Shown piece after piece: positions 256 through 22,015 of a stretch of 22,577 bases of DNA. Every line of letters starts with the position of its first letter. Position 1 is the stretch's first letter. The notes under the pieces are model-generated. The model ran no database searches and was not told the origin of the DNA. It saw nothing but the letters and a program-made list of their open reading frames with translations. The stretch comes from a virus, in the IMG/VR virus record IMGVR_UViG_3300043411_000276, positions 1-22,577 of that record; one strand, given 5' to 3'. The position numbers and the translations under genes are program-made.

Positions 256-2400
256 ATGGCGAGAAAGACAAAAGAAGTGTTGCACAGTGAAGTTTTCGAG
301 CGCGCTCGCAAGCAGTTCGGTGCAATCATGGGCGCTCAACGCGCAGAGCGTGAGTTGTGTCTATCTGATCGTCGCTTTTACTCGATTGCCGGCGCGCAGT
401 GGGAAGGTGCGCTGTCTGAGCAGTTCGAGAATCGTCCGCAATTTGAGTTTAATAAAATCCATTTGGCTGTAATTCGGATTATCAACGAATATCGCAACAA
501 CCGAATGAGCGTTGTTTTTGTTCCGAAGGACGGCGCACAAGAAAAAAGCAATGATGAAATTACCGGCATTTATCGTGCAGACATGAATATGTCATGCGGT
601 GAGGAAGCAAAGGATAATGCTTTTGAAGAGGCTGTAGGTGGCGGATTTGGCGCGTACAGATTGCGGAATGTTGAAGAAGATGAGTACGACAGCACAAACG
701 AAAAACAAAAAATAATTGCAGAACCGATCTATGATGCGGATAGTTGCGTGTTCTTTGACCTGTCCTCAAAACGACAAGACAAGTCTGACGCTAATCATGC
801 GTATGTGCTTCGCGGCGTTCCATACGATGAATATATTGCAGAATATAACGACAACCCTGCATCATGGCCTAAAGATGTAAGCATGGTCGAATTCGACTGG
901 CTGATTGGTAATGACACAGTTTACATTGCAGAGTATTACGAGAAAGAGTTTACAAAAGAAACTCTGCGCGTTTTCCGTGGTGTGGATGGCACAGAACAGA
1001 CTTATAGTGATGAAGAACTTGATGATGAACTTGATGAAATTCTTGAGGTAACTGGATTTCGTGAAGTTCGACAGCGCAAGATAAAAAAATGCCGCGTTCA
1101 TAAATATATTTTGTCCGGCGGCGGGATTATTGAGGATTGCGGTTACATTGCTGGCAGAGATATTCCTATCGTTCCTGTGTACGGCAAGCGTTGGATGGTT
1201 GATGGCGTAGAGCGTTGCATGGGTCATGTTCGCTTAGCTAAGGATGCGCAAAGATTAAAAAATCTACAACTCTCAAAACTTGGTGAAATATCTGCGCTGT
1301 CTAGTGTTGAAAAGCCGATCTTAACGCCAGAACAGGTTAGCGGTCACGAGGTGATGTGGGCAGAGGATAATGTTAAACAGTACCCTTATTTGCTAATAAA
1401 CCCGATCACAGACTCAAACGGCAATGCTACAGCAGTTCCTCCAACTGGATACACAAGACCGCCTGCTGTGCCGCCGGCGCTTGCCGCGCTACTGCAAACA
1501 ACAGAGCAGGATATCCGTGACATTCTTGGCAATCCTGAGCGCGCAGAGATTGTGTCGCCCAACGCTTCAGGTGTTGCGATCGAGTTGGCGCAATCCAAAG
1601 TAGATATGCAGACCTTTATCTACCTATCCAACTTTGCAAAGGCTGAAAAACGCTGTGCAGAAATTTGGTTGTGTATGGCGAAAGAAGTTTATGTCGAAGA
1701 AAACAGAAAGCTCCGGACGGTAAACGATGCTGGCGAACTTGGTGCTGTGGCGATCAATTCGCCTATGCTTAGTCCTGAAACTGGGGCGGTGGAATACAGC
1801 AATGATTTAAGTTCGCAGTCATTTGATGTTGTTGTCGATGTTGTGCCTTCAAGCGTTTCTCGACGCGCCGCCACTGTTCGCGCACTTACACAGATGATTG
1901 GAATGACACAGGATCCAGAAACGCAACAAGTGTTGTCCGCCACTGCCATGATGAACATGGATGCAGAGGGCGTTTCTGATATTCGCAAGTATTTCAGAAA
2001 CAAACTGCTACAGATTGGCGCGGTCGAACCAACGAATGAAGAAGCGGCGCAATTAGCGGCAGCGCAGCAAGCACAAAGCGCGCAGCCTGATGTACAAGCA
2101 GCGTTCTTTTTGGCTGAGGCAGAAAAGGCACAGGCGAACGCGGCGAAGGCAAGAGCTGAGACAGTGCTTACGATGGCGAAAGTTGACCAGACTAGAGCAG
2201 ACACTGTTTCCACGATGGCAGATATTGAGAAAACAAAACAAGAAACTCGGTCGAGCATTAAAAAAGACTACGCAGAAACGCTAGACCGATTGACAGAAAA
2301 CGGCAATGATTTATTGGTGACCGCTGAGCCACAAGTCAGCGAGCAAAAACCGGCACCCGCCCAGCCGGAAAGTTTGGGTGAGTTAGGAGTGATCCAATGA
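256..2400 (+). CDS. P22 gp1-like portal protein
   Basis: 714 aa, close to the roughly 725 aa of P22 gp1. The portal is a dodecameric ring at the unique capsid vertex through which DNA enters and leaves. Residues of about 70-200 (NEYRNNRMSVVF, DNAFEEAVGGGFGAYRL, EPIYDADSCVFFD, DKSDANHAY) follow the order I know from the P22 portal. ASGVAIELAQSKVDMQTF (about residues 437-455) fits the stem and clip region of the same family. The last 130 residues are rich in Ala, Gln and Lys and are predicted helical, consistent with the long barrel of P22-type portals. The start at ATG 256 has the upstream GAGGG at good spacing. The stop overlaps the scaffold start by ATGA. Confidence 0.95.
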   Translation: MARKTKEVLHSEVFERARKQFGAIMGAQRAERELCLSDRRFYSIAGAQWEGALSEQFENRPQFEFNKIHLAVIRIINEYRNNRMSVVFVPKDGAQEKSNDEITGIYRADMNMSCGEEAKDNAFEEAVGGGFGAYRLRNVEEDEYDSTNEKQKIIAEPIYDADSCVFFDLSSKRQDKSDANHAYVLRGVPYDEYIAEYNDNPASWPKDVSMVEFDWLIGNDTVYIAEYYEKEFTKETLRVFRGVDGTEQTYSDEELDDELDEILEVTGFREVRQRKIKKCRVHKYILSGGGIIEDCGYIAGRDIPIVPVYGKRWMVDGVERCMGHVRLAKDAQRLKNLQLSKLGEISALSSVEKPILTPEQVSGHEVMWAEDNVKQYPYLLINPITDSNGNATAVPPTGYTRPPAVPPALAALLQTTEQDIRDILGNPERAEIVSPNASGVAIELAQSKVDMQTFIYLSNFAKAEKRCAEIWLCMAKEVYVEENRKLRTVNDAGELGAVAINSPMLSPETGAVEYSNDLSSQSFDVVVDVVPSSVSRRAATVRALTQMIGMTQDPETQQVLSATAMMNMDAEGVSDIRKYFRNKLLQIGAVEPTNEEAAQLAAAQQAQSAQPDVQAAFFLAEAEKAQANAAKARAETVLTMAKVDQTRADTVSTMADIEKTKQETRSSIKKDYAETLDRLTENGNDLLVTAEPQVSEQKPAPAQPESLGELGVIQ

Positions 2401-3227
2401 GTGACGAAGAAAAGCAGTTGATTGATGATGTCGAGCATGATCCCGAGGTCGAACTGGAAACAGAAGAGACGGAAGATGAGGGCGAGATTGTTGTTAGTAT
2501 TGACGGCGAAGAAGCAAGCGAGAAAGAGGAAGCGGAGCCTGCGCCTGAATGGGTGAAGGATTTGCGAAAAAAGCACCGCGAGCTTGAGCGAGAAAACCGC
2601 GATCTGAGAGCCAAAGTATCTGCTGCGAATGGCATGGAAAATGCTCCTGCTATTTTGCCGAAGAAGCCAAGGCTTGATGATGACGGCATTGATTATGACC
2701 AAGACAAGTACGAAGCGGAGTTAGATGCTTGGTATGCCAAAAAAGCTGACTTTGACAGACAGGAGCGCGAGAACGAAAAAGCGGAAGCAGAGAAGCAAAA
2801 TAGCTTTAATGCCAAGCTGGAATCGTACAATCAAGCGCGAGAGAAAATCAGGGTTCCAGACTTCGATGATGCTGAGGGTAATCTAATCAATGCGCTTGAT
2901 AGAACCCAACAAGGTATTATCATTGATGCGTGCGAAAATCCTGCTTTGTTGGTGTATGCTCTCGGTCGAAATCAAGGCAAACTCAATGAGTTGGCGGCGA
3001 TTAAAAATCCTGTGCAGTTTGCTTATGCAGTCTCAAAATTGGAGAACACCATGAAAGTCACCAAAAAAACAGCAGCCGCAGAAGTGGAAAAAATGCCGCC
3101 ATCGTTTGGTGGTAAATCCGTTGCTTCGGCTGATAAAAACCTTGACCGCCTTCGCGCTGAAGCTGAAAAGACCGGCGATTATTCAAAGGTTATGCAGTAT
3201 AAAAAACAGCTCAAGGCTAAAAAATAA
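2397..3227 (+). CDS. Scaffolding protein, P22 gp8-like
   Basis: 276 aa, very charged. Residues 1-50 are strongly acidic, residues 55-135 are coiled coil rich in Glu, Arg and Lys, and the last residues are basic (MQYKKQLKAKK), which resembles the coat-binding C-terminal helix-turn-helix of P22 scaffold (303 aa). Scaffold directs coat assembly into the procapsid and then leaves. It lies between portal and coat, as in P22, and starts inside the portal stop codon (ATGA), suggesting translational coupling. Sequence similarity is weak, as is usual for scaffolds. The call rests on position, charge pattern and helical content. Confidence 0.85.
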   Translation: MSDEEKQLIDDVEHDPEVELETEETEDEGEIVVSIDGEEASEKEEAEPAPEWVKDLRKKHRELERENRDLRAKVSAANGMENAPAILPKKPRLDDDGIDYDQDKYEAELDAWYAKKADFDRQERENEKAEAEKQNSFNAKLESYNQAREKIRVPDFDDAEGNLINALDRTQQGIIIDACENPALLVYALGRNQGKLNELAAIKNPVQFAYAVSKLENTMKVTKKTAAAEVEKMPPSFGGKSVASADKNLDRLRAEAEKTGDYSKVMQYKKQLKAKK

Positions 3228-3242
3228 TTTAGGAGAAATACC

Positions 3243-4511
3243 ATGAGTAATGCATTTTCAAAAGAAGAACGCGTAGCGTTTGAAACGCTGCTAGAAGGCT
3301 TCAACGATGCGGAAGTAATGAGCCGCAATGTTGATAAATATACCACTGACGGCATGACGATGGCGCGCGCAAACGACACCATGTGGCTGCCTCAGCCATA
3401 TATCATGCAGTCGTTTTCCGGCATGGATCAGACCGCCAACTTCAAAGATGTAACGCAGCTTTCTGTGCCCGCAACTTTGGGTTACAGCAAGTCCGTTCCG
3501 TGGACAATGGACGCGAAAGAGCTGCGCGATGCGCTGCAAGAACAGCGTCTCGGCGATTCTGCGCGTCAAAAGCTGGCTTCTGACATTAATGTCGCCGTCT
3601 TGGCTGCCGCTGCCACGTACGGCGGCTTAGTTGTCAAGAAAGGAACTCCGACCGGCTTTGATGACATCGCAACTTGCGATGCTCTGATGAACGAGGTTGG
3701 TGTAGAGCAGTTTGATCGCAAACTCGCATTGTCTAGCCGCGACTACAACCGCATTGCTGGCAATTTGGCAGGCCGTCAAAATCTGGAAAACCGCACCGAG
3801 ACAGCGTATGACTACGCTCGCATCGGCATGGTGTCTGGGTTTGAGTCGTTCAAGCTGGATTATCCGAAGCGTTTACAGGCGGCTGGTGGTGGTGGCTCTA
3901 TCACTATTGATACTCGCGCGGCTGCTAATAACTTCTACACACCTCGCGCCACTAGCACTGCTGTAACGGGTGAAGTTAGCAATGTAGACAACCGTTTCCA
4001 GACCATAACCGTTAGCGCAACTGCTGGCGTTGTAGCTGGTGACTCGTTCACTATCAACGGCGTAACGCAATGCCACTTGATCAGCAAAGAAGATACGGCA
4101 CAGCCAAAAACCTTCCGCGTTGTTTCTGTCACTGACGGCACTCACTTGGTTATCACGCCACCGCTGATTTCAGCGCAGGGCGCGTCTGATGCAGAGAAGC
4201 AGTACCAGAACGCGAAAGTGGCTGGCACTGGTCTTGCAACCGCTGCGATTACTTGGCTGAACACCGTTGATTGTGCTATGAACCCGTTCTGGCACAAGGG
4301 CGCGATCAAGTTGTTGCCTGGCAGCTATGCGGTGGATAACAACACGGGCGCTTCTATCCTGCGCGGTAAAACCGATTCGGGTATTGAGGTTGTGTTGCAG
4401 AAGCAGTATGACATTGCGACAATGAAAACGCGCTTCCGCGTGGATACATTGTTCGGTGTTGTGAATGCTGCGCCTGAGCAGTCTGGCATTTTGTTGTTCG
4501 ATCAGACCTAA
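3243..4511 (+). CDS. Major coat protein, P22 gp5-like
   Basis: 422 aa, against 430 aa for P22 coat. The N-terminal part has TMWLPQPYIMQSFSG followed by SVPWTMDAKELRDALQEQRLGDSARQKL, corresponding to the N-arm and E-loop region of P22-type coat. Residues of about 235-300 (TITVSATAGVVAGDSFTING and following) form a beta-rich insertion where P22 coat carries its I-domain. A strong TAGGAGAAATACC leader precedes ATG 3243. The gene is followed at once by an intrinsic terminator, which would raise coat mRNA stability or reduce expression of downstream genes. Confidence 0.93.
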   Translation: MSNAFSKEERVAFETLLEGFNDAEVMSRNVDKYTTDGMTMARANDTMWLPQPYIMQSFSGMDQTANFKDVTQLSVPATLGYSKSVPWTMDAKELRDALQEQRLGDSARQKLASDINVAVLAAAATYGGLVVKKGTPTGFDDIATCDALMNEVGVEQFDRKLALSSRDYNRIAGNLAGRQNLENRTETAYDYARIGMVSGFESFKLDYPKRLQAAGGGGSITIDTRAAANNFYTPRATSTAVTGEVSNVDNRFQTITVSATAGVVAGDSFTINGVTQCHLISKEDTAQPKTFRVVSVTDGTHLVITPPLISAQGASDAEKQYQNAKVAGTGLATAAITWLNTVDCAMNPFWHKGAIKLLPGSYAVDNNTGASILRGKTDSGIEVVLQKQYDIATMKTRFRVDTLFGVVNAAPEQSGILLFDQT

Positions 4512-17221: not shown

Positions 17222-17610
17222 TCAGAGCAATCCACTATCGTCGATACGACCACAAAAACTATCGGTTCATTCTGACCGCGCCGTTGACGCTGGACACGGG
17301 TATTATCAACCGCGCATGCAAAACGGATTGGATCGAGCTGGATCGCAACGGCGTGATGACGCTATCGGCTGGCTACGCATGGGACGGTGCAAGCGGTATT
17401 GCGATCAATACCGAAAACAGTGTGCGTGCGAGTTGCGGACACGATGCGCTGTATCAGTTGATCCGTTTGGGATTGCTGCCGCGCACCAAGCGACTGCAAG
17501 CGGATAGCGATTTGCGAAAGTGGCTCATCGAGGACGGAATGCTGGAGCTACGCGCTGGCATTTGGTTTCTCGCCGTGCGATTATTCGGAGAGCTGTATGA
17601 ACAACGATGA
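17218..17610 (+). CDS. DUF1353 family protein
   Basis: 130 aa from ATG 17218, coupled by ATGA to the preceding gene. The pattern LTLDTGIINRACKTDWIELDRNGVMTLSAGYAWDGASG, then SCGHDALYQLIRLGLLP and the charged C-terminal helix, is that of DUF1353, small proteins common near phage lysis genes and of unknown role. H and D of GHDALYQ are conserved in the family, which hints at a metal or catalytic site. It is the last rightward gene. Its 3' end overlaps a leftward gene fragment on the other strand by 86 bases. Confidence 0.85.
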   Translation: MIRAIHYRRYDHKNYRFILTAPLTLDTGIINRACKTDWIELDRNGVMTLSAGYAWDGASGIAINTENSVRASCGHDALYQLIRLGLLPRTKRLQADSDLRKWLIEDGMLELRAGIWFLAVRLFGELYEQR

Positions 17611-17725
17611 TGTTTCTGCGCAAGTAGTTCGCAATGTCAGCGCTGTCCCAAAGCTGATTCTGCACAGGCACTTGCGGCTGTAGTTTTTCCGCGATCATGT
17701 TTGCTATTTGTTCAATTCTGCTCAT
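17525..17725 (-). pseudogene. Truncated helix-turn-helix (excisionase-like) gene remnant
   Basis: 66 codons from ATG 17725. Residues 1-42 (MSRIEQIANMIAEKLQPQVP, then LWDSADIANYLRRN) look like small phage DNA-binding or AlpA/excisionase-type proteins, where W-x-x-x-D-I-A-x-Y-L opens a winged helix. In that family the frame continues with a recognition helix and a wing containing FP and R-P; here the sequence after residue 43 becomes unrelated and is simply the antisense of the DUF1353 gene end. I therefore read it as a gene that lost its 3' half at about 17611. A short functional protein is possible but less likely. The gene lies just past the cassette array, in the direction of the early operon. 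Confidence 0.5.
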
Positions 17726-17754
17726 GTCGTTTTCCACGCTGTCGGCGGAGTTAT

Positions 17755-17768
17755 ACCCCACTTGGGGT
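17755..17768. promoter_or_regulatory. Short perfect inverted repeat beside the array
   Basis: ACCCC at 17755-17759 pairs with GGGGT at 17764-17768 around ACTT. No T-run follows on either strand, so it is not a convincing terminator. It lies ten bases left of the array boundary core (17778) and overlaps a second core-like GTTATAC (17750-17756). It may be an operator, a weak transcription pause between the converging operons, or part of an attI-like target. Only the repeat itself is certain. Confidence 0.4.
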
Positions 17769-17778
17769 CTATTAGTAG

Positions 17779-18006
17779 TTATGCGTCACGCTCGTTCACC
17801 ATACGCAGCATGAACTCGTTTTCGTGTTTCAGCCGCATATTCTCCCCGCGCAGAATTGAAATCTCTCTGTCTAGGTTTTGCAGTTCTGTGAACATCTGGT
17901 GCATATCGCTAACAACCTGCTTTACATCATCACTACAATCTACTACCAGCTTCGCCGCAATTGCATACGGGAAATTTACTTTTCGGCCTTGCGCTGTTGT
18001 GTACAT
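17779..18006 (-). CDS. Cassette 1: small coiled-coil protein
   Basis: 75 aa. ATG 18006 follows AAGGGGAGTTT. The stop TAA lies inside the boundary core GTTATGC (17778-17784), and the protein ends in ERDA. Residues of about 30-72 form a leucine-zipper-like coiled coil (MFTELQNLDREISILRGENM and following), so it is probably an oligomer. The N-terminus FPYAIAAKLVVDCSDDVKQV is mixed. I do not recognise a family. It is the cassette nearest the left boundary and the last one reached by leftward transcription from the early operon. Confidence 0.8.
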   Translation of the reverse strand: MYTTAQGRKVNFPYAIAAKLVVDCSDDVKQVVSDMHQMFTELQNLDREISILRGENMRLKHENEFMLRMVNERDA

Positions 18007-18023
18007 AAACTCCCCTTAAAGAC

Positions 18024-18079
18024 GCATAACAAGTCATTCCAGCGGACGGCGTTGCCGCCGCTGAATTCCGTCGTTATAC
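18024..18079 (+). other. attC site 1
   Basis: Left core GCATAAC, right core GTTATAC, 56 bases. Arms ATTCCAGCGG and CCGCTGAATT pair with one extra C in the left arm; an inner hairpin of CGGCGTTGCCG follows. The two cores do not complement each other, but GCATAAC complements the start of cassette 1 (TTATGC). Confidence 0.9.
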
Positions 18080-18244
18080 GTCATTGCGAATGTACACTGT
18101 TGCCAGTACGAGCAAACATTTTGAGCAGCAAATATCTTTCCCGGCATAATTACCGGTTACGTCTTCATAGAACACCGAGTCAGTGACGCTCTGGTTTATT
18201 GATTTACAGTTGTGGCAGTATATATGCGTGAAATTACAAGACAT
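18074..18244 (-). CDS. Cassette 2: zinc-ribbon-like protein A
   Basis: 56 aa. Four cysteines in two CxxC pairs: YCHNC (residues 10 and 13) and CCSKC (40 and 43, with C39 beside), a small zinc ribbon. The paralogue at 19473-19643 keeps HIYC-NC, YED, AG-DICC--C and the last nine residues ATVYIRNDV, so the frame is under selection. The start ATG 18244 has AGGAG upstream inside the end of the preceding gene, three bases away, so the two genes of this cassette are coupled. The TAA stop lies in the right core of attC 1. Role unknown: RNA or protein binding is possible. Confidence 0.85.
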   Translation of the reverse strand: MSCNFTHIYCHNCKSINQSVTDSVFYEDVTGNYAGKDICCSKCLLVLATVYIRNDV

Positions 18245-18247
18245 AAC

Positions 18248-18574
18248 CTATGCTCCTTTTCTTGGTTTATGTATGCCGCAATACCTAGCTCCGCATCCTT
18301 GACACTGCGCATCATTCTCGCAAGTGCAAATAACACACCCGCAAGGCTGATTCTTAGCCCTCATAAAAGGCTCGCGTACAAGCTGTTCAACAGTATCAAC
18401 AAACGGCAAAGTCCGGCTTGGAGCTTGCATCAAGGAATTTTGCAGTCTTTCCCAGTCTGTAATTGGTATCTCTACATGCTCGCCCATATCAATATCACGA
18501 CACGCCACAAAAGCATCTACAACCTGTTTGCGCCATTCTTTGTGCCACTTCAAGTTTAATTTGTCAGCTAACAT
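18248..18574 (-). CDS. Cassette 2: protein with C-terminal cysteine cluster
   Basis: 108 aa from ATG 18574, with TTAGGAGTAATT upstream; a longer frame would start inside attC 2. The N-terminal 75 residues are helical and charged (LNLKWHKEWRKQVVDAFVAC). The C-terminus has CGCVICTCENDAQCQGCGAR followed by YCGIHKP: seven or more Cys and one His in 30 residues, a likely zinc-binding knuckle of a kind seen in other phage proteins. It is the only cassette with two genes. It ends TAG rather than in a core site, consistent with an internal position. Confidence 0.82.
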   Translation of the reverse strand: MLADKLNLKWHKEWRKQVVDAFVACRDIDMGEHVEIPITDWERLQNSLMQAPSRTLPFVDTVEQLVREPFMRAKNQPCGCVICTCENDAQCQGCGARYCGIHKPRKGA

Positions 18575-18590
18575 AATTACTCCTAATGGT

Positions 18591-18638
18591 ACATAACAAC
18601 GCAATCAAGCGGACTGGCCGCTTATTGCAGGGTTATAC
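18591..18638 (+). other. attC site 2
   Basis: Left core ACATAAC, right core GTTATAC, 48 bases, the shortest of the array. Arms AATCAAGCGG and CCGCTTATT pair with one extra C on the left; the loop is ACTGG. Confidence 0.9.
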
Positions 18639-18875
18639 GCCTTCTTTGCTGTTAGCTGCTTCCACAGATTGAGAAAGCGCGATTCGTGATTCATTCAGCA
18701 TTCCAATCAGCCCGCCAATAATCATATCTGCATTAAGCATCTGTGATTCAAGCGCATCTGCCTGCCTGCGAACATGGTCAGGGTATGGTCGCGTAACCTC
18801 TCTTGTTTTTTCTCGGCACTGGCGAATCATGTAAGCCAAGTCCATTAACCGCGTGTCGTATTGTTTAATTTCCAC
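18633..18875 (-). CDS. Cassette 3: helical protein
   Basis: 80 aa with GTG start at 18875, preceded by the very strong site CGGAGGTTACAA. It ends KEGV with the TAA in the right core of attC 2. All-helical by composition: DTRLMDLAYMIRQCREKTRE, then a linker RPYPDHVRR and a second helix pair with MIIGGLIGMLNESRIALS. A Gly/Ile/Leu patch (IIGGLIGML) is too short for a clear membrane segment. No known family recognised. Confidence 0.8.
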   Translation of the reverse strand: MEIKQYDTRLMDLAYMIRQCREKTREVTRPYPDHVRRQADALESQMLNADMIIGGLIGMLNESRIALSQSVEAANSKEGV

Positions 18876-18889
18876 TTGTAACCTCCGAC

Positions 18890-18946
18890 GTATAACAACG
18901 CCATGAATCGGACTCGTTTCACTCGCCGCTTATGGCAAGGTTATGC
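18890..18946 (+). other. attC site 3
   Basis: Left core GTATAAC, right core GTTATGC, 57 bases. Arms CATGAATCGG and CCGCTTATG, with an extra G on the left. The left core complements the start of cassette 3 (TTATAC), not its linear partner. Confidence 0.9.
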
Positions 18947-19111
18947 GTCATGTTCTACCATGTCGCGCTCTGTTCCTTTGTCTTTGCGAACATTGCCAAA
19001 ACCAGTTTTGTGTATCTTGCTTTTCAGTCCACCAGCACCATTCATCTTGTGTGGCTTGCACATCAGGCAGCCAGCTCTGCGGTTCTTTGGTCTTCCGCGT
19101 TTGTGGTTCAT
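18941..19111 (-). CDS. Cassette 4: basic protein with a CxxC motif
   Basis: 56 aa from ATG 19111, chosen because ACGGAGGAAAC lies directly upstream; a 76-codon frame from 19171 would begin inside attC 4. Very basic N-terminus with MNHKRGRPKNRRAGCLMCKP, including an AT-hook-like RGRP and a single CxxC, so nucleic acid binding is plausible. A similar RRAGCxxCKPxKxNG signature occurs in small proteins of many proteobacteria, function unknown to me. Ends EHDA with TAA in the right core of attC 3. Confidence 0.8.
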   Translation of the reverse strand: MNHKRGRPKNRRAGCLMCKPHKMNGAGGLKSKIHKTGFGNVRKDKGTERDMVEHDA

Positions 19112-19134
19112 GTTTCCTCCGTTAGTAGAATTAC

Positions 19135-19215
19135 GCATAACAAGTCGCTCAAAATCGTTCGCTTTGCTCACTGGACTCGGCCTGTCGGCCTCGCCCTTTA
19201 GCTTCAGCGTTAGGT
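19135..19215 (+). other. attC site 4
   Basis: Left core GCATAAC, right core GTTAGGT, 81 bases. Outer arms GCTCAAA and TTTAGC, with extra C on the left, then a longer inner region with the hairpin GGCCTGTCGGCC. The left core complements the start of cassette 4 (TTATGC). Confidence 0.88.
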
Positions 19216-19398
19216 TTCGCCAGTGACAAACTTCATTGCTACCGGAAAAATATCAACGGCATTGTCTGGCATCATTCCTTTCTGCAAAGCAATTAGCCGC
19301 CCAATTTTCATAAGCATGTCTTGTGGTATTTCCACTGTGAATCGCGGCAGCGTAATGCCTTCACCAGTAATGCCTTGCAGATCAACTTCTACCAGCAC
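19210..19398 (-). CDS. Cassette 5: small protein, unknown
   Basis: 62 aa from GTG 19398, six bases after AAGGGGA; an in-frame TTG at 19404 touches that site and is unlikely. Sequence begins (M)LVEVDLQGITGEGITLPRFT, a beta-rich N-terminus, then a helix (QDMLMKIGRLIALQKGMM). Ends TGET, with TAA in the right core of attC 4. The pattern recalls small ligand or DNA-binding domains, but no family can be named. Confidence 0.78.
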   Translation of the reverse strand: MLVEVDLQGITGEGITLPRFTVEIPQDMLMKIGRLIALQKGMMPDNAVDIFPVAMKFVTGET

Positions 19399-19414
19399 AA
19401 TCAATCCCCTTGAA

Positions 19415-19478
19415 ACCTAACTACTCGGTGAAGGCTCGACGCAGCTAACGCTGCGCGGCCTTACCTCGGATGTTATAC
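19415..19478 (+). other. attC site 5
   Basis: Left core ACCTAAC, right core GTTATAC, 64 bases. Arms GGTGAAGGC and GCCTTACC with an extra G on the left, then an inner hairpin GCAGCTAACGCTGC. The left core complements the start of cassette 5 (TTAGGT). Confidence 0.9.
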
Positions 19479-19643
19479 GTCATTCCGAATGTACACCGTG
19501 GCAATTACAAGAAAGCACGCTGCACAACAAATATCACCGCCTGCAAACTTACCGCTAGTATCCTCGTACAATTTATCATCCGACACGCACTCGGTTATCT
19601 TCTTGCAGTTATCGCAGTATATATGTGTGAAACTGTGCTGCAT
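19473..19643 (-). CDS. Cassette 6: zinc-ribbon-like protein B
   Basis: 56 aa from ATG 19643, with CAGAGGACAAACAAA upstream. Paralogue of the cassette 2 protein at 18074-18244, with the same length and the same layout: HIYCDNC, YEDTSGKFAGGDICCAAC, then ATVYIRNDV and TAA in the right core of attC 5. CxxC pairs at residues 10/13 and 40/43, with an extra Cys at 19. About 60 percent of aligned residues are identical by eye. The upstream leader, however, is shared with cassette 8 rather than with cassette 2. Confidence 0.87.
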   Translation of the reverse strand: MQHSFTHIYCDNCKKITECVSDDKLYEDTSGKFAGGDICCAACFLVIATVYIRNDV

Positions 19644-19651
19644 TTTGTTTG

Positions 19652-19696
19652 TCCTCTGTAGTTAAAATGCCGTATAACAACGCAATCAAGCTGGAC
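19652..19696 (+). repeat. 45-base exact direct repeat, copy 1
   Basis: Identical to 20228-20272. It covers the leader of the minus-strand gene (ribosome site region) and the left core, spacer and left arm of attC 6. The genes in front of the two copies are unrelated, so only the leader and site are shared. Confidence 0.9.
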
Positions 19697-19727
19697 GGCT
19701 ACGCCGCCGCTTATTGCAAGGTTAGGT
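19672..19727 (+). other. attC site 6
   Basis: Left core GTATAAC, right core GTTAGGT, 56 bases. Arms AATCAAGCTGG and CCGCTTATT with extra C and T on the left. The left half is identical to attC 8. The left core complements the start of cassette 6 (TTATAC). Confidence 0.92.
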
Positions 19728-19901
19728 GTCTTGTTCTGCATCCTTTATCAGCGCCTTGGCACAGCCAACTTCTGCCTTTGCAGCCGCCATCTGATGCTTG
19801 CAATGAAGCAGCGTAGTATGCGGGTGGCTAGTCGCTTTCATCGCTGCCTCGGCAGCCCTTTCCAGAGCAGCGGCGGCTTCTTTCAGTTTCTTGTAGTTCA
19901 T
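19722..19901 (-). CDS. Cassette 7: small Ala-rich helical protein
   Basis: 59 aa from ATG 19901, with CAGGAGAGAAGAAGC upstream. The sequence is MNYKKLKEAAAALERAAEAA, then MKATSHPHTTLLHCKHQM, then a second helix ending DAEQDT with TAA in the right core of attC 6. It looks like a helical hairpin with a central H-P-H-x4-H-C-K-H segment that could bind metal. No family recognised. The frame fills the cassette and has a proper ribosome site, so it is probably real despite its size. Confidence 0.75.
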   Translation of the reverse strand: MNYKKLKEAAAALERAAEAAMKATSHPHTTLLHCKHQMAAAKAEVGCAKALIKDAEQDT

Positions 19902-19927
19902 GCTTCTTCTCTCCTGGTGGTTCAGCC

Positions 19928-19994
19928 ACCTAACAATTCATTCAAGCCGACTCACTTCGCTTCGCTCGTTCACTGCTTAACTCCTGCGTTATGC
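19928..19994 (+). other. attC site 7, aadA-like
   Basis: Left core ACCTAAC, right core GTTATGC, 67 bases. The left part (TAAC, spacer AATTC, arm ATTCAAGCCGAC) is the same as the left part of the attC of aadA resistance cassettes as I know it, and the right arm GCTTAACTC also agrees. It fixes polarity as plus strand. The left core complements the start of cassette 7 (TTAGGT). Confidence 0.93.
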
Positions 19995-19995
19995 G

Positions 19996-20220
19996 TCATG
20001 CAAACTTCATCACGTCCATCAAATCCTGCGCGGCTTCCTCTGGGTCGGTAAACTCACCATTGGCGCACTTGCGTACAAAATCCTCTAGCTTTTCGTTTGT
20101 CTCGAAAATGTCGTAAAACGCAGCAGCAGAAACGTCTGTTTCATGCCCGCAAATGTTAATAGTGCGCGCTACACGTACATGCTCTGGTGCGTTTCTAAAA
20201 AGAAGTGCAATAGTTCCCAT
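19996..20220 (-). CDS. Cassette 8: small acidic protein, unknown
   Basis: 74 aa from ATG 20220, with CAGAGGATTAAACG upstream. It begins MGTIALLFRNAPEHVRVART and has an acidic helical second half (NEKLEDFVRKCANGEFTDPEEAAQDLMDVM). It is the only single-gene cassette whose stop (TGA at 19996-19998) lies just outside the core site, two bases before it. Size and charge would suit a small inhibitor or mimic protein, but this is only composition. Confidence 0.8.
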   Translation of the reverse strand: MGTIALLFRNAPEHVRVARTINICGHETDVSAAAFYDIFETNEKLEDFVRKCANGEFTDPEEAAQDLMDVMKFA

Positions 20221-20227
20221 CGTTTAA

Positions 20228-20272
20228 TCCTCTGTAGTTAAAATGCCGTATAACAACGCAATCAAGCTGGAC
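20228..20272 (+). repeat. 45-base exact direct repeat, copy 2
   Basis: Second copy of the repeat at 19652-19696, here in the leader of cassette 8 and the left half of attC 8. The right halves of the two attC sites then diverge in the loop and agree again in the right arm. Confidence 0.9.
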
Positions 20273-20306
20273 AGCCTTCGGCTGCCGCTTATTGCGGGCG
20301 TTAGGT
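20248..20306 (+). other. attC site 8
   Basis: Left core GTATAAC, right core GTTAGGT, 59 bases. Arms AATCAAGCTGG and CCGCTTATT, inner hairpin CAGCCTTCGGCTG. The left core differs by one base from the complement of the start of cassette 8 (TTATGC). Confidence 0.92.
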
Positions 20307-20504
20307 GTCAATCAGATACTCGCACTCGAATACAATTATAGGTGGCGGCAGCATATGAACTACCCTTTCACCAGTGGCAACAGAAAGTCGGCGCAGGCAA
20401 ACATCACACCCTTCGCGCCATCCTTCTTCATCGTTGCCGCTTCCGGCGCACCTTGCAACGTCATTCGGTAGCCGCCTAACATGTCGCTCAACCTCGTTCG
20501 TCAT
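20301..20504 (-). CDS. Cassette 9: cysteine-containing small protein
   Basis: 67 aa from ATG 20504, six bases after GTGAGGA; both ribosome site and start lie inside attC 9. The next in-frame ATG is only 15 codons from the end, and no alternative start codon exists between. The core pattern ARCAGSGNDEEGWREGCDVC plus LRRL, then PPPIIVFECEYLIDT, recalls small phage proteins with a C-x-G-x-G...EGWREGC-x2-C-x-RR motif, a probable zinc site. TAA in the right core of attC 8. A longer frame from about 20608, reading through attC 9, is possible. Confidence 0.72.
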   Translation of the reverse strand: MTNEVERHVRRLPNDVARCAGSGNDEEGWREGCDVCLRRLSVATGERVVHMLPPPIIVFECEYLIDT

Positions 20505-20553
20505 TTCATTCCTCACTGGACGCGCTACGCGCCCGTCAATTCCGGTGTTATAC
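20474..20553 (+). other. attC site 9, degenerate, right end of array
   Basis: Left core GCCTAAC, right core GTTATAC, 80 bases. The left part resembles attC 4 (GTCGCTCAA, TCGTTCG, CTCACTGGAC), and the inner hairpin GACGCGCTACGCGCC is good, but the right arm GTCAATTCC does not pair well with the left arm. It looks like a hybrid or decaying site. It is the last attC before the phage early operon. Confidence 0.75.
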
Positions 20554-20589: not shown

Positions 20590-20880
20590 TCAAAACTGGA
20601 AGTCGCCATCATGAAAATACTCGCCTTCTGCTGCCATTTTCGCGCCTTCGATTTTCTCCAGCGTTTGCAGCACAGTATTTTGCAGGCTGGCAGAAATGTA
20701 AGCGTGATTGAGCCATTCCCCGTTTTCCAGTTTCGAGCTTGGCGGCGATACAAACTCGGTTCCATCAGCGCGTTTTGCTATCTTGCAATTTTTTATCACA
20801 AGATACGGCTTGTCGTTCTCATCCATCAGCGCAATGCCGAAGGTTTTACCTGACTGGCTTTTTTCTATGACCACTCTCAT
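20590..20880 (-). CDS. Small early protein, SpoVG-like fold possible
   Basis: 96 aa, ATG 20880 overlapping the stop of the upstream gene (TAATG). The pattern FGIALMDENDKPYLVIKNCK, then RADGTEFVSPPSSKLENGEW and a C-terminal helix, resembles SpoVG-type small nucleic-acid-binding proteins, where xFVxxPSxKxxDGxW is the hallmark. In phages such proteins sit beside recombination genes. The family call is tentative. It is the last early gene before the cassette array, and leftward transcription would run on from it into the cassettes. Confidence 0.65.
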   Translation of the reverse strand: MRVVIEKSQSGKTFGIALMDENDKPYLVIKNCKIAKRADGTEFVSPPSSKLENGEWLNHAYISASLQNTVLQTLEKIEGAKMAAEGEYFHDGDFQF

Positions 20881-21374
20881 TATTCAACCCTCAGTGTTTT
20901 CTTGTATTCCAAATGTGCGCCTTCGATGGCTTCGCCAGCTTCCAGCGCCTTTTTAACAGCAGCATTGTCAATAATCTCGTTGCTGACTACCGTCTTGTAT
21001 GTATCAGGTATCAATGCCGGATCGTCGATTTTCATGGATGCGCGAGGCTTTGGAATCTTGGCGCTATGCTCAAGTGTGCCAACGTGAGCAATATGCAGCT
21101 TTTCCATGCACATTAGCAGGTAATCCTTGAGCCTTTGCGCGTTATTTCCCAGCGATTTAGATTTAGCGCTGTGGCGCTTGGCAATCTCTGCATGGCCGCT
21201 AGCATCATGCTCTAGCTGCTTAATCACAGCAACCACTCTGGCGGCTTTTTCTGATATGGCTTGTTCGGATGACTCCAAGATGCTGTAAAGCTGCTCCTCC
21301 GGTATGTCATCTTCACCGCTCAGAATTTCGTACAGTTCAGCATCTTGTTCAATCAGATTGTATAGAGTAGTCAT
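20880..21374 (-). CDS. Gp157-like phage protein
   Basis: 164 aa. N-terminal acidic helices (MTTLYNLIEQDAELYEILSG), then EKAARVVAVIKQLEHDASGHAEIAKRHSAKSKSLGNNAQRLKDYLLMCM and a beta-rich C-terminus with IPDTYK and the final GAHLEYKKTLRVE. This is the layout of the siphovirus Gp157 family, found beside ERF, RecT or SSB genes, with a suspected recombination or replication helper role. ATG 21374 overlaps the ERF gene stop (ATGA). Confidence 0.85.
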   Translation of the reverse strand: MTTLYNLIEQDAELYEILSGEDDIPEEQLYSILESSEQAISEKAARVVAVIKQLEHDASGHAEIAKRHSAKSKSLGNNAQRLKDYLLMCMEKLHIAHVGTLEHSAKIPKPRASMKIDDPALIPDTYKTVVSNEIIDNAAVKKALEAGEAIEGAHLEYKKTLRVE

Positions 21375-22015
21375 TGTGGCGCTCCTGTTTTGGATTTAAG
21401 CATTGATACAGCCTGTGCATATTTAGCCAGCGGCAAAGCCGAAACACTGGGGATTTTGAAGTAGGCGCAAAATCCCGCCTTGTCGCTGTTGGTAGCGTCA
21501 AGCATTGCGTTGATTTCAGCGAATTCAACATCACCAATAGTTGCGTTTGACGGTGCATTTTTTGGCTGTGGCGCTGATTGTGGAGCTACTTGATGCGTTA
21601 CCGCGTCTGCATCATTGTCGCCCTCTGTCGGGATTGCAAAGGCCTGGAATGCTGCATACTTGTAAGCCGCGCTCATCGCCTTATTTGTTGCCTTGTCGCC
21701 GCTGTCCATCGCCTCGCCAAATGTGCGTACAGTGTGCTTGCTGCCATCCTCGGAGGATACAAAATCAAACTCCGCCTCAACTGTCACATAAAACAGCGCG
21801 TTACCTTTGGCGCTTGTGCGCTCTACGCAATTCCGGCTAACCATGCGAGGCAGTATGCACAGTCCATGCTCTGCCAATAGCGGGCTGATAGCGTTGTACA
21901 CGTCATCTATGCCACGAAACATAAAGCTAGCGCCTTGTGTACACTGTCTATCCTTTGTGATGCCATGCACTGACAGCGCTTTCTGCACTGCGTTGATTGC
22001 TTGATAAACTTTCAT
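21371..22015 (-). CDS. erf: ERF family single-strand DNA annealing protein
   Basis: 214 aa (P22 Erf is 204 aa). The family signatures FRGIDDVYNAISPLLAEHGL, then FGEAMDSGDKATNKAMSAAYKYA and AFQAFAIPTEG (about residues 35-155), are present. The C-terminal 60 residues are a Pro/Gln/Ala linker and a small helical tail (NAMLDATNSDKAGFCAYFKI). It anneals complementary single strands for recombination and genome circularisation. Overlaps neighbours on both sides by ATGA, so expression is coupled. Confidence 0.92.
   Translation of the reverse strand: MKVYQAINAVQKALSVHGITKDRQCTQGASFMFRGIDDVYNAISPLLAEHGLCILPRMVSRNCVERTSAKGNALFYVTVEAEFDFVSSEDGSKHTVRTFGEAMDSGDKATNKAMSAAYKYAAFQAFAIPTEGDNDADAVTHQVAPQSAPQPKNAPSNATIGDVEFAEINAMLDATNSDKAGFCAYFKIPSVSALPLAKYAQAVSMLKSKTGAPQ

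Follow-up and report, generated by a model that had tools for sequence, protein, structure and literature searches.

An integron cassette array with reversed genes in the early operon of a P22-like phage

Can an array of integron cassettes be a working part of a phage genome and, if so, which enzyme would exchange its genes? The question is raised by positions 17778-20553 of the IMG/VR virus record IMGVR_UViG_3300043411_000276, a linear fragment of 22.6 kb that was analysed at its full length of 22,577 nucleotides (the window) and for which an initial annotation had described nine consecutive attC sites between small genes of a P22-like podovirus. We consider it likely, with a probability of roughly 70%, that this array is a genuine cassette cluster without integrase (CALIN) within the leftward early operon of the phage, that its genes are reversed relative to the attC sites and that its cassettes are most likely exchanged by an integron integrase (IntI) of the host.

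The sites were examined with a covariance model (R2) built from 18 attC sites of other arrays, with no window site included. Their sources were the class 1 integron of a P1 record, phage TJE1, Lysobacter, Arenimonas, Nitrospirae and Phycisphaerae. Because they had been located with R1, a model of the nine window sites, R2 depends mildly on the window; those of class 1 and TJE1 are published attC sites. R2 recovered all nine sites where they had been annotated, all on the plus strand and eight of them with E-values of 5e-15 to 4e-6; the ninth (site I) is weak, with 15.7 bits, an E-value of 0.043 and an alignment that starts at 20496. No match beyond the nine was obtained with R2 on either strand of the window at E-values up to 10, and Rfam gave no match in the window at its gathering cut-offs. 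The sites, and a core box at the end of the array, are as follows.

18024-18079, plus strand: attC A (R2 57.3 bits, E 5e-15; R1 55.5 bits; bottom-strand hairpin z -2.95)
18591-18638, plus strand: attC B (R2 38.4 bits; hairpin z -5.4)
18890-18946, plus strand: attC C (R2 32.3 bits)
19135-19215, plus strand: attC D (R2 28.6 bits; a possible alternative GTG start of the left-hand gene lies inside)
19415-19478, plus strand: attC E (R2 34.4 bits; hairpin z -4.4)
19672-19727, plus strand: attC F (R2 37.2 bits; L''-side bulges)
19928-19994, plus strand: attC G (R2 39.9 bits; very close to class 1 type attC)
20248-20306, plus strand: attC H (R2 42.5 bits; hairpin z -5.4)
20474-20553, plus strand: attC I, the promoter-proximal array end (R2 15.7 bits for 20496-20553; start at 20474 set by eye)
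17778-17784, plus strand: terminal core box GTTATGC (element 17767-17784), a candidate attI-like core

The sites have the architecture of attC, with inverted R''/R' and L''/L' boxes and extrahelical bases on the L'' side. The bottom strand, folded as a single strand, forms a stem with L''-side bulges in most sites, of the G20''/T12'' type in the best ones; in stability, five of the nine sites fold clearly better than nearly all shuffled sequences, and the long sites do not. In six sites (D to I), R'' pairs better with the box beyond the gene (9-11 of 12 positions) than with its own R' (6-8 of 12), a pattern that arises when a gene and its attC integrate as one cassette; in sites A to C this complementarity is not discriminating. 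A regular expression that required near-full complementarity of R'' and R' recovered only two sites and was rejected, the criterion being wrong because R'' pairs with the far end of its own cassette. Taken together, the R2 matches, the folds and the R'' pattern confirm the nine attC sites. Nine sites within 2.5 kb of a record that lacks an integron integrase constitute a CALIN, as judged with the present models and not with IntegronFinder's own, and P22-type portal, scaffold and coat genes on the same record place it inside a P22-like phage genome. The predicted lack of intI was borne out, TIGR02249 being absent from the record, which is a fragment and was searched for the integron integrase family only.

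R1 in turn recovers attC sites of the class 1 integron in P1, of TJE1, Vibrio and Shewanella, each time on the strand that carries the genes. Of 60 genomes of the Lysobacter family, 50 contain matches to it. The window-derived model thus behaves as a general attC detector, for example in genomes G012, G013, G390 and G418, with up to 82 matches per genome.

The genes between the sites do not follow the canonical cassette arrangement, in which the gene runs along attC and has it downstream: all of them lie on the minus strand, and the attC sites are in plus orientation. Where nine cassettes had been annotated, about ten genes are present, since one interval holds two.

17779-18006, minus strand: cassette gene 1, 75 amino acids (aa), coiled-coil-like by eye; Shine-Dalgarno (SD) motif ggggag, stop TAA in core box
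18074-18244, minus strand: cassette gene 2, 56 aa, Cys-rich, paralog of gene 7
18248-18574, minus strand: cassette gene 3, second gene of one interval; SD AGGAG, ATG
18633-18875, minus strand: cassette gene 4, 80 aa, GTG start; SD GGAGG, stop in core box
18941-19111, minus strand: cassette gene 5, 56 aa (alternatively 76 aa from a GTG at 19171, inside attC D); SD GGAGG, stop in core box
19210-19404, minus strand: cassette gene 6, 64 aa, start uncertain; stop CCTAA in core box
19473-19643, minus strand: cassette gene 7, 56 aa, Cys-rich, paralog of gene 2
19722-19901, minus strand: cassette gene 8, 59 aa; SD GGAG, stop in core box
19996-20220, minus strand: cassette gene 9, 74 aa; SD GAGG, stop TGA beside core box
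20301-20504, minus strand: cassette gene 10, 67 aa; SD GAGG, stop in core box, start inside attC I

A ribosome-binding motif precedes nearly every start, and the stops either fall within the core box (GCATAA, GTATAA, or CCTAA with C as the next base) or lie a few bases from it. The two Cys-rich genes are identical at 36 of 57 aligned positions, the stop counted, and their differences in the minus-strand reading fall mostly on third codon positions (14/12/31). No relative of the Cys-rich protein was detected in phage records or in 369 genomes of Lysobacter's class, a search that had no positive control.

Is this reversal a peculiarity of one fragment? Each attC site was scored as sense if an SD-preceded gene of at least 45 residues ended at R'', and as reversed if such a gene ended at R' on the other strand; the score depends on where SD and stop lie, and many bacterial sites could not be called with it. 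(Scoring by the direction of the longest open reading frame (ORF) was dropped in favour of genes ending at core sites, as it was ambiguous in the window because antisense frames are long.) Ten phage contigs yielded 33 reversed and three sense sites, two of the latter being window sites that also hold a reversed gene. The class 1, Vibrio, Shewanella, TJE1, Lysobacter and other bacterial loci gave 36 sense sites and no reversed one, and nine further bacterial loci, all of one family, gave 67 sense and 14 reversed. When pooled, the ratio of reversed to sense is 33:3 in phages against 14:103 in the bacterial, class 1 and TJE1 arrays (Fisher p ~5e-19, an overstated value because the sites of one array are not independent). 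By contig, nine of nine informative phage contigs are majority reversed and every informative bacterial locus is majority sense, reversed cassettes being a minority in bacteria. The window array probably belongs to a class of phage cassettes with genes reversed relative to attC.

The reversal recurs in other phages. MW202573, a complete circular P22-like genome, carries its attC sites on the strand opposite to the genes, in an array directly after a gp157-like gene. Reversed arrays are also present in the IMG/VR contigs L001, L026, L033 (with its near copy L032), L063, L066, L069 and L070; an additional contig, L065, has a single attC site of uncallable orientation. In L026, L033 and L070 arrays flank the early region on both sides, with attC sites that point in opposite directions and genes that are reversed in both arrays. 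The contig L066 (IMGVR_UViG_3300032163_000059, 36.3 kb) likewise has its early region flanked by two sets of attC sites; its head is of a non-P22 type, with a portal that is T7-like by eye, and reversed arrays are thus probably not confined to P22-like phages.

At the promoter-distal end of four arrays, two of them from sister phages, we noted a weak attI-like inverted core pair with a spacer of 4-5 nucleotides (nt): window 17750-17784, L026 160-241 (minus strand), L033 14455-14500 and L001 7560-7610. In the window the second box (GTCTATT, 4 nt from the terminal core) is inverted and degenerate, and with five of seven positions matching the consensus it is a weak candidate. The motif TTGCGTCAG(G/T)TGAT just past the distal core pair is common to L026, L033 and L001.

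Do the cassettes move? The initial annotation had proposed to look for arrays of different content between matching flanks, and such a case exists: L026 and L033/L032 are 99.6% identical over 2507 bp adjoining the array, the cassettes between the flanks are different genes, and on the far side the contigs become essentially identical again from about 20 bp past the last core box outward. At L033 13380-14162, between a helix-turn-helix gene and the first attC, lies a gene beginning MIHYHGTPMGGK with a half core site (GTTGTTATGCGG) ahead of it; possibly this is a further cassette gene, one that the sister L026 lacks. L001 and L026 share a Lar-type cassette whose two copies, measured from one core box to the other, agree at 290 of 291 bases; the 40 bases past each box have 10 and 11 matches, i.e. 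are unrelated. L033 has one cassette gene twice, once in each of its arrays, and the copies differ at eight codons, all synonymously, which indicates that the gene is under selection and that the strand call is right. The hairpins differ in both cases, and the shared unit is the gene between its core boxes with neither hairpin in full.

These comparisons also bear on the idea that a bacterial array was captured once by transduction-like recombination and that its sites are now inert. No integrase was found in the phages, as this idea would have it, and illegitimate capture has been suggested by Qi et al. for some phage arrays (PMC9892861). Nevertheless we regard such a fossil as improbable: bacterial arrays are mostly gene-sense while the informative phage contigs are all reversed, the cassettes of sister phages differ between nearly identical flanks, and no cassette gene is common to the phage arrays and the sampled bacterial arrays.

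The phage early operon probably transcribes the cassettes, and the reversed genes appear to be read along with it. With its own SD for nearly every gene and a stop at the core box, each cassette would form a self-contained translation unit. No tyrosine recombinase (PF00589) was found in the phage records with reversed arrays, most of which are fragments but which include the circular MW202573, and a host integrase acting in trans is therefore the simplest reading. We favour a model in which a host-encoded IntI would recombine the attC sites of infecting phage DNA, so that small early genes, some of them of the Lar type or DNA methyltransferases, could be exchanged between phages. The sites, their orientation, the reversed genes, the differing content between matching flanks, the shared and duplicated cassettes and the lack of a tyrosine recombinase are sequence-based; from these we infer IntI as the actor, the host as its source and counter-defence as the selection that acts on the cassettes. 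A wider picture is more tentative: the phages might keep a pool of reversed cassettes of their own, apart from the bacterial one and with a translation start and stop in each cassette, with a unit that extends from box to box and with hairpins reshuffled via both DNA strands, and the arrays that end both divergent early operons might be counter-defence banks worked by the host integrase.

Several points weigh against exchange by a host IntI. The window is a fragment, and an integrase could lie elsewhere in its genome; recombination is deduced from comparing sequences, as is the part of a host integrase; and no significant family match was obtained for any of the ten window proteins. The sites within an array are not independent, the bacterial baseline comes mostly from one family, and the phage contigs were gathered in part via attC sequence or shared cassettes, so that the frequency of reversed arrays among phages cannot be stated. 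Most puzzling, the hairpins to the left and to the right of the shared Lar cassette both differ between L001 and L026, although one hairpin is expected to travel in standard bottom-strand attC recombination. A unit without hairpins needs either top-strand events or a later replacement of the hairpins by the phage annealing recombinase. Top-strand recombination was lower yet measurable for most of the phage sites studied by Qi et al. (PMC9892861) and could account for the shared unit.

The same observation is explained equally well by an exchange free of IntI, in which the attC hairpins would merely serve as repeated homology and the annealing recombinase of the phage (Erf in the window, a RecT-like protein in L026 and L033) would swap the genes through annealing at short homologies. 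Erf is encoded in the window, an exonuclease/SSB/recombinase operon adjoins the arrays of L026 and L033, and hairpin halves and leaders such as GATTGCGTTGTTATACGGC recur. The identity of the shared Lar cassette is, however, bounded by core boxes of seven bases, which is very short for homologous exchange, and bulge and box features are preserved across many unrelated sites. We therefore consider annealing without IntI rather unlikely and retain the host integrase as the preferred actor.

Indications of function come from the related arrays. They encode three Lar-like proteins according to PHROG, two of which, in L001 and L033, are above the Pfam cut-off for Lar (PF14354), as well as DUF7446 and DUF1653 proteins. 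A DNA methyltransferase (phrog_954) is encoded in the MW202573 array, and a relative with 47% identity adjoins the L033 array.

In several cassettes (in L001, L026 and MW202573 and for the window gene at 20301-20504) the SD and the start codon are located inside the hairpin, and the attC site would then be translated as the N-terminus. A search of IMG/VR for this hairpin-start pattern returned no contig. Could the hairpins then be mainly RNA elements of the early operon, for translation starts, processing or termination, with a secondary likeness to attC? The start codons and SD motifs inside hairpins would suit such a role. Yet a model of bacterial attC sites matches the hairpins with the right strand and bulges, their stems vary freely in sequence and length, and many genes start past the hairpin, which makes an RNA function as their main purpose very improbable.

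A short leader, TTAAC(C/T)TACAGAGG or ACTAACTACRGAGG, is also common to unrelated cassette genes, where it separates R'' from the start codon. It occurs at window 19652-19699 and 20228-20275, L026 876-1120 and 6520-6550, L033 7155-7370 and 7658-7910, L001 5957-5990, L069 380-412 and L070 7970-8000. From its sequence it looks as if genes had been fused to a standard module of attC, leader and SD.

The genome around the array is that of a P22-like podovirus, as PHROG profiles identified P22-type portal, scaffold, coat and ejection proteins. The plus strand encodes portal, scaffold, coat, head-tail connectors, ejection proteins and endolysin and is followed by the minus-strand early operon; the array sits between the plus-strand late genes and the Erf and Gp157 genes, within this leftward operon.

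256-4511, plus strand: P22-like portal, scaffold and coat genes (phrog_156, E 1e-135; phrog_648, E 2e-56; phrog_283, E 9e-70)
17525-17725, minus strand: possible last early-operon gene beyond the array, 66 aa (phrog_4996, E 7e-4, weak)
20590-20880, minus strand: early gene upstream of the array, 96 aa (ORF, no PHROG match)
20880-21374, minus strand: Gp157/Gam-like early gene (phrog_253, E 1e-32)
21371-22015, minus strand: Erf single-strand annealing protein (phrog_155, E 2e-38)

Since the window is a metagenome contig, a bacterial CALIN could in principle have been joined to phage DNA during assembly, which the initial annotation had named as a possible refutation. Such a join is hardly credible: the same position and orientation recur in the complete circular MW202573, reversed arrays are present in other contigs, the GC content of the array (47.8%) equals that of the phage DNA (48.7 and 48.9%), and the gene direction is unlike that of the sampled bacterial arrays. 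The array DNA had no match in plasmids. The nearest portal relatives (MW202867, MW202475, G001 and G003) have no attC matches, and L005, a 97% relative of the window, stops before the array, its remainder L073 being without an attC match; hence no empty site was found for the window. A query with the plus-strand gene that flanks the array found no relative either.

How does the array relate to known systems? Integrase-less cassette clusters have been described in phages, virulent ones included, by Qi et al. in 2023, who also found that IntI1 recombines phage attC sites (PMC9892861). The novelty suspected in the initial annotation therefore does not extend to phage CALINs or their recombination; the reversal of all genes, which that annotation had not noticed, is new. 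The clusters of Qi et al. resemble the present one in having attC sites without intI, and one of the phage CALINs in their list, MW202573, is P22-like as well and has its array next to gp157. It is reversed by the present orientation test, a point on which the text of the paper is silent (PMC9892861). Their typical examples TJE1 and PH101 show, as described, the usual cassette arrangement; TJE1 is gene-sense in our analysis too and has three sites compared to nine in the window. Qi et al. was the only account of phage-borne attC sites that we found in the open-access literature, in which we found no report of all-reversed arrays, of arrays flanking the early region or of box-to-box sharing of phage cassettes.

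The CALINs and sedentary chromosomal integrons of bacteria (the Lysobacter family, Vibrio and Shewanella) have the same attC family and the same core boxes, but their genes run mostly along attC, whereas the window array lies in a phage operon, with no intI or Pc found, and has no cassette genes in common with the sampled loci. The attC sites of the class 1 mobile integron (P1 transconjugant MH445380) are so alike that the window model matches at least five of them; unlike the window, this integron carries gene-sense resistance cassettes and an integrase and attI of its own. The array also resembles the accessory genes of phage early operons in consisting of small early genes, with Lar and methyltransferase genes among them in the related arrays. 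Such accessory genes usually have no bounding recombination sites.

By choosing the bottom strand, the integrase makes sure that cassettes are oriented as expression from Pc requires (PMC11023631). In the phage arrays this orientation is turned round, and the phage operon would take the place of Pc. As a rule, cassette genes are read from the attI side; the reversed arrays depart from this, and they represent a natural system for comparing the use of top and bottom strands of attC. Bacterial integrons have recently been reported as banks of anti-phage defence genes, going by the titles cited in PMC12444791. The phages with reversed arrays appear to bank small early genes, some of the anti-restriction type, via the same sites with the genes turned round. 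If this is true, integron recombination would operate on both sides of the arms race and would provide a gene-by-gene route of phage mosaicism.

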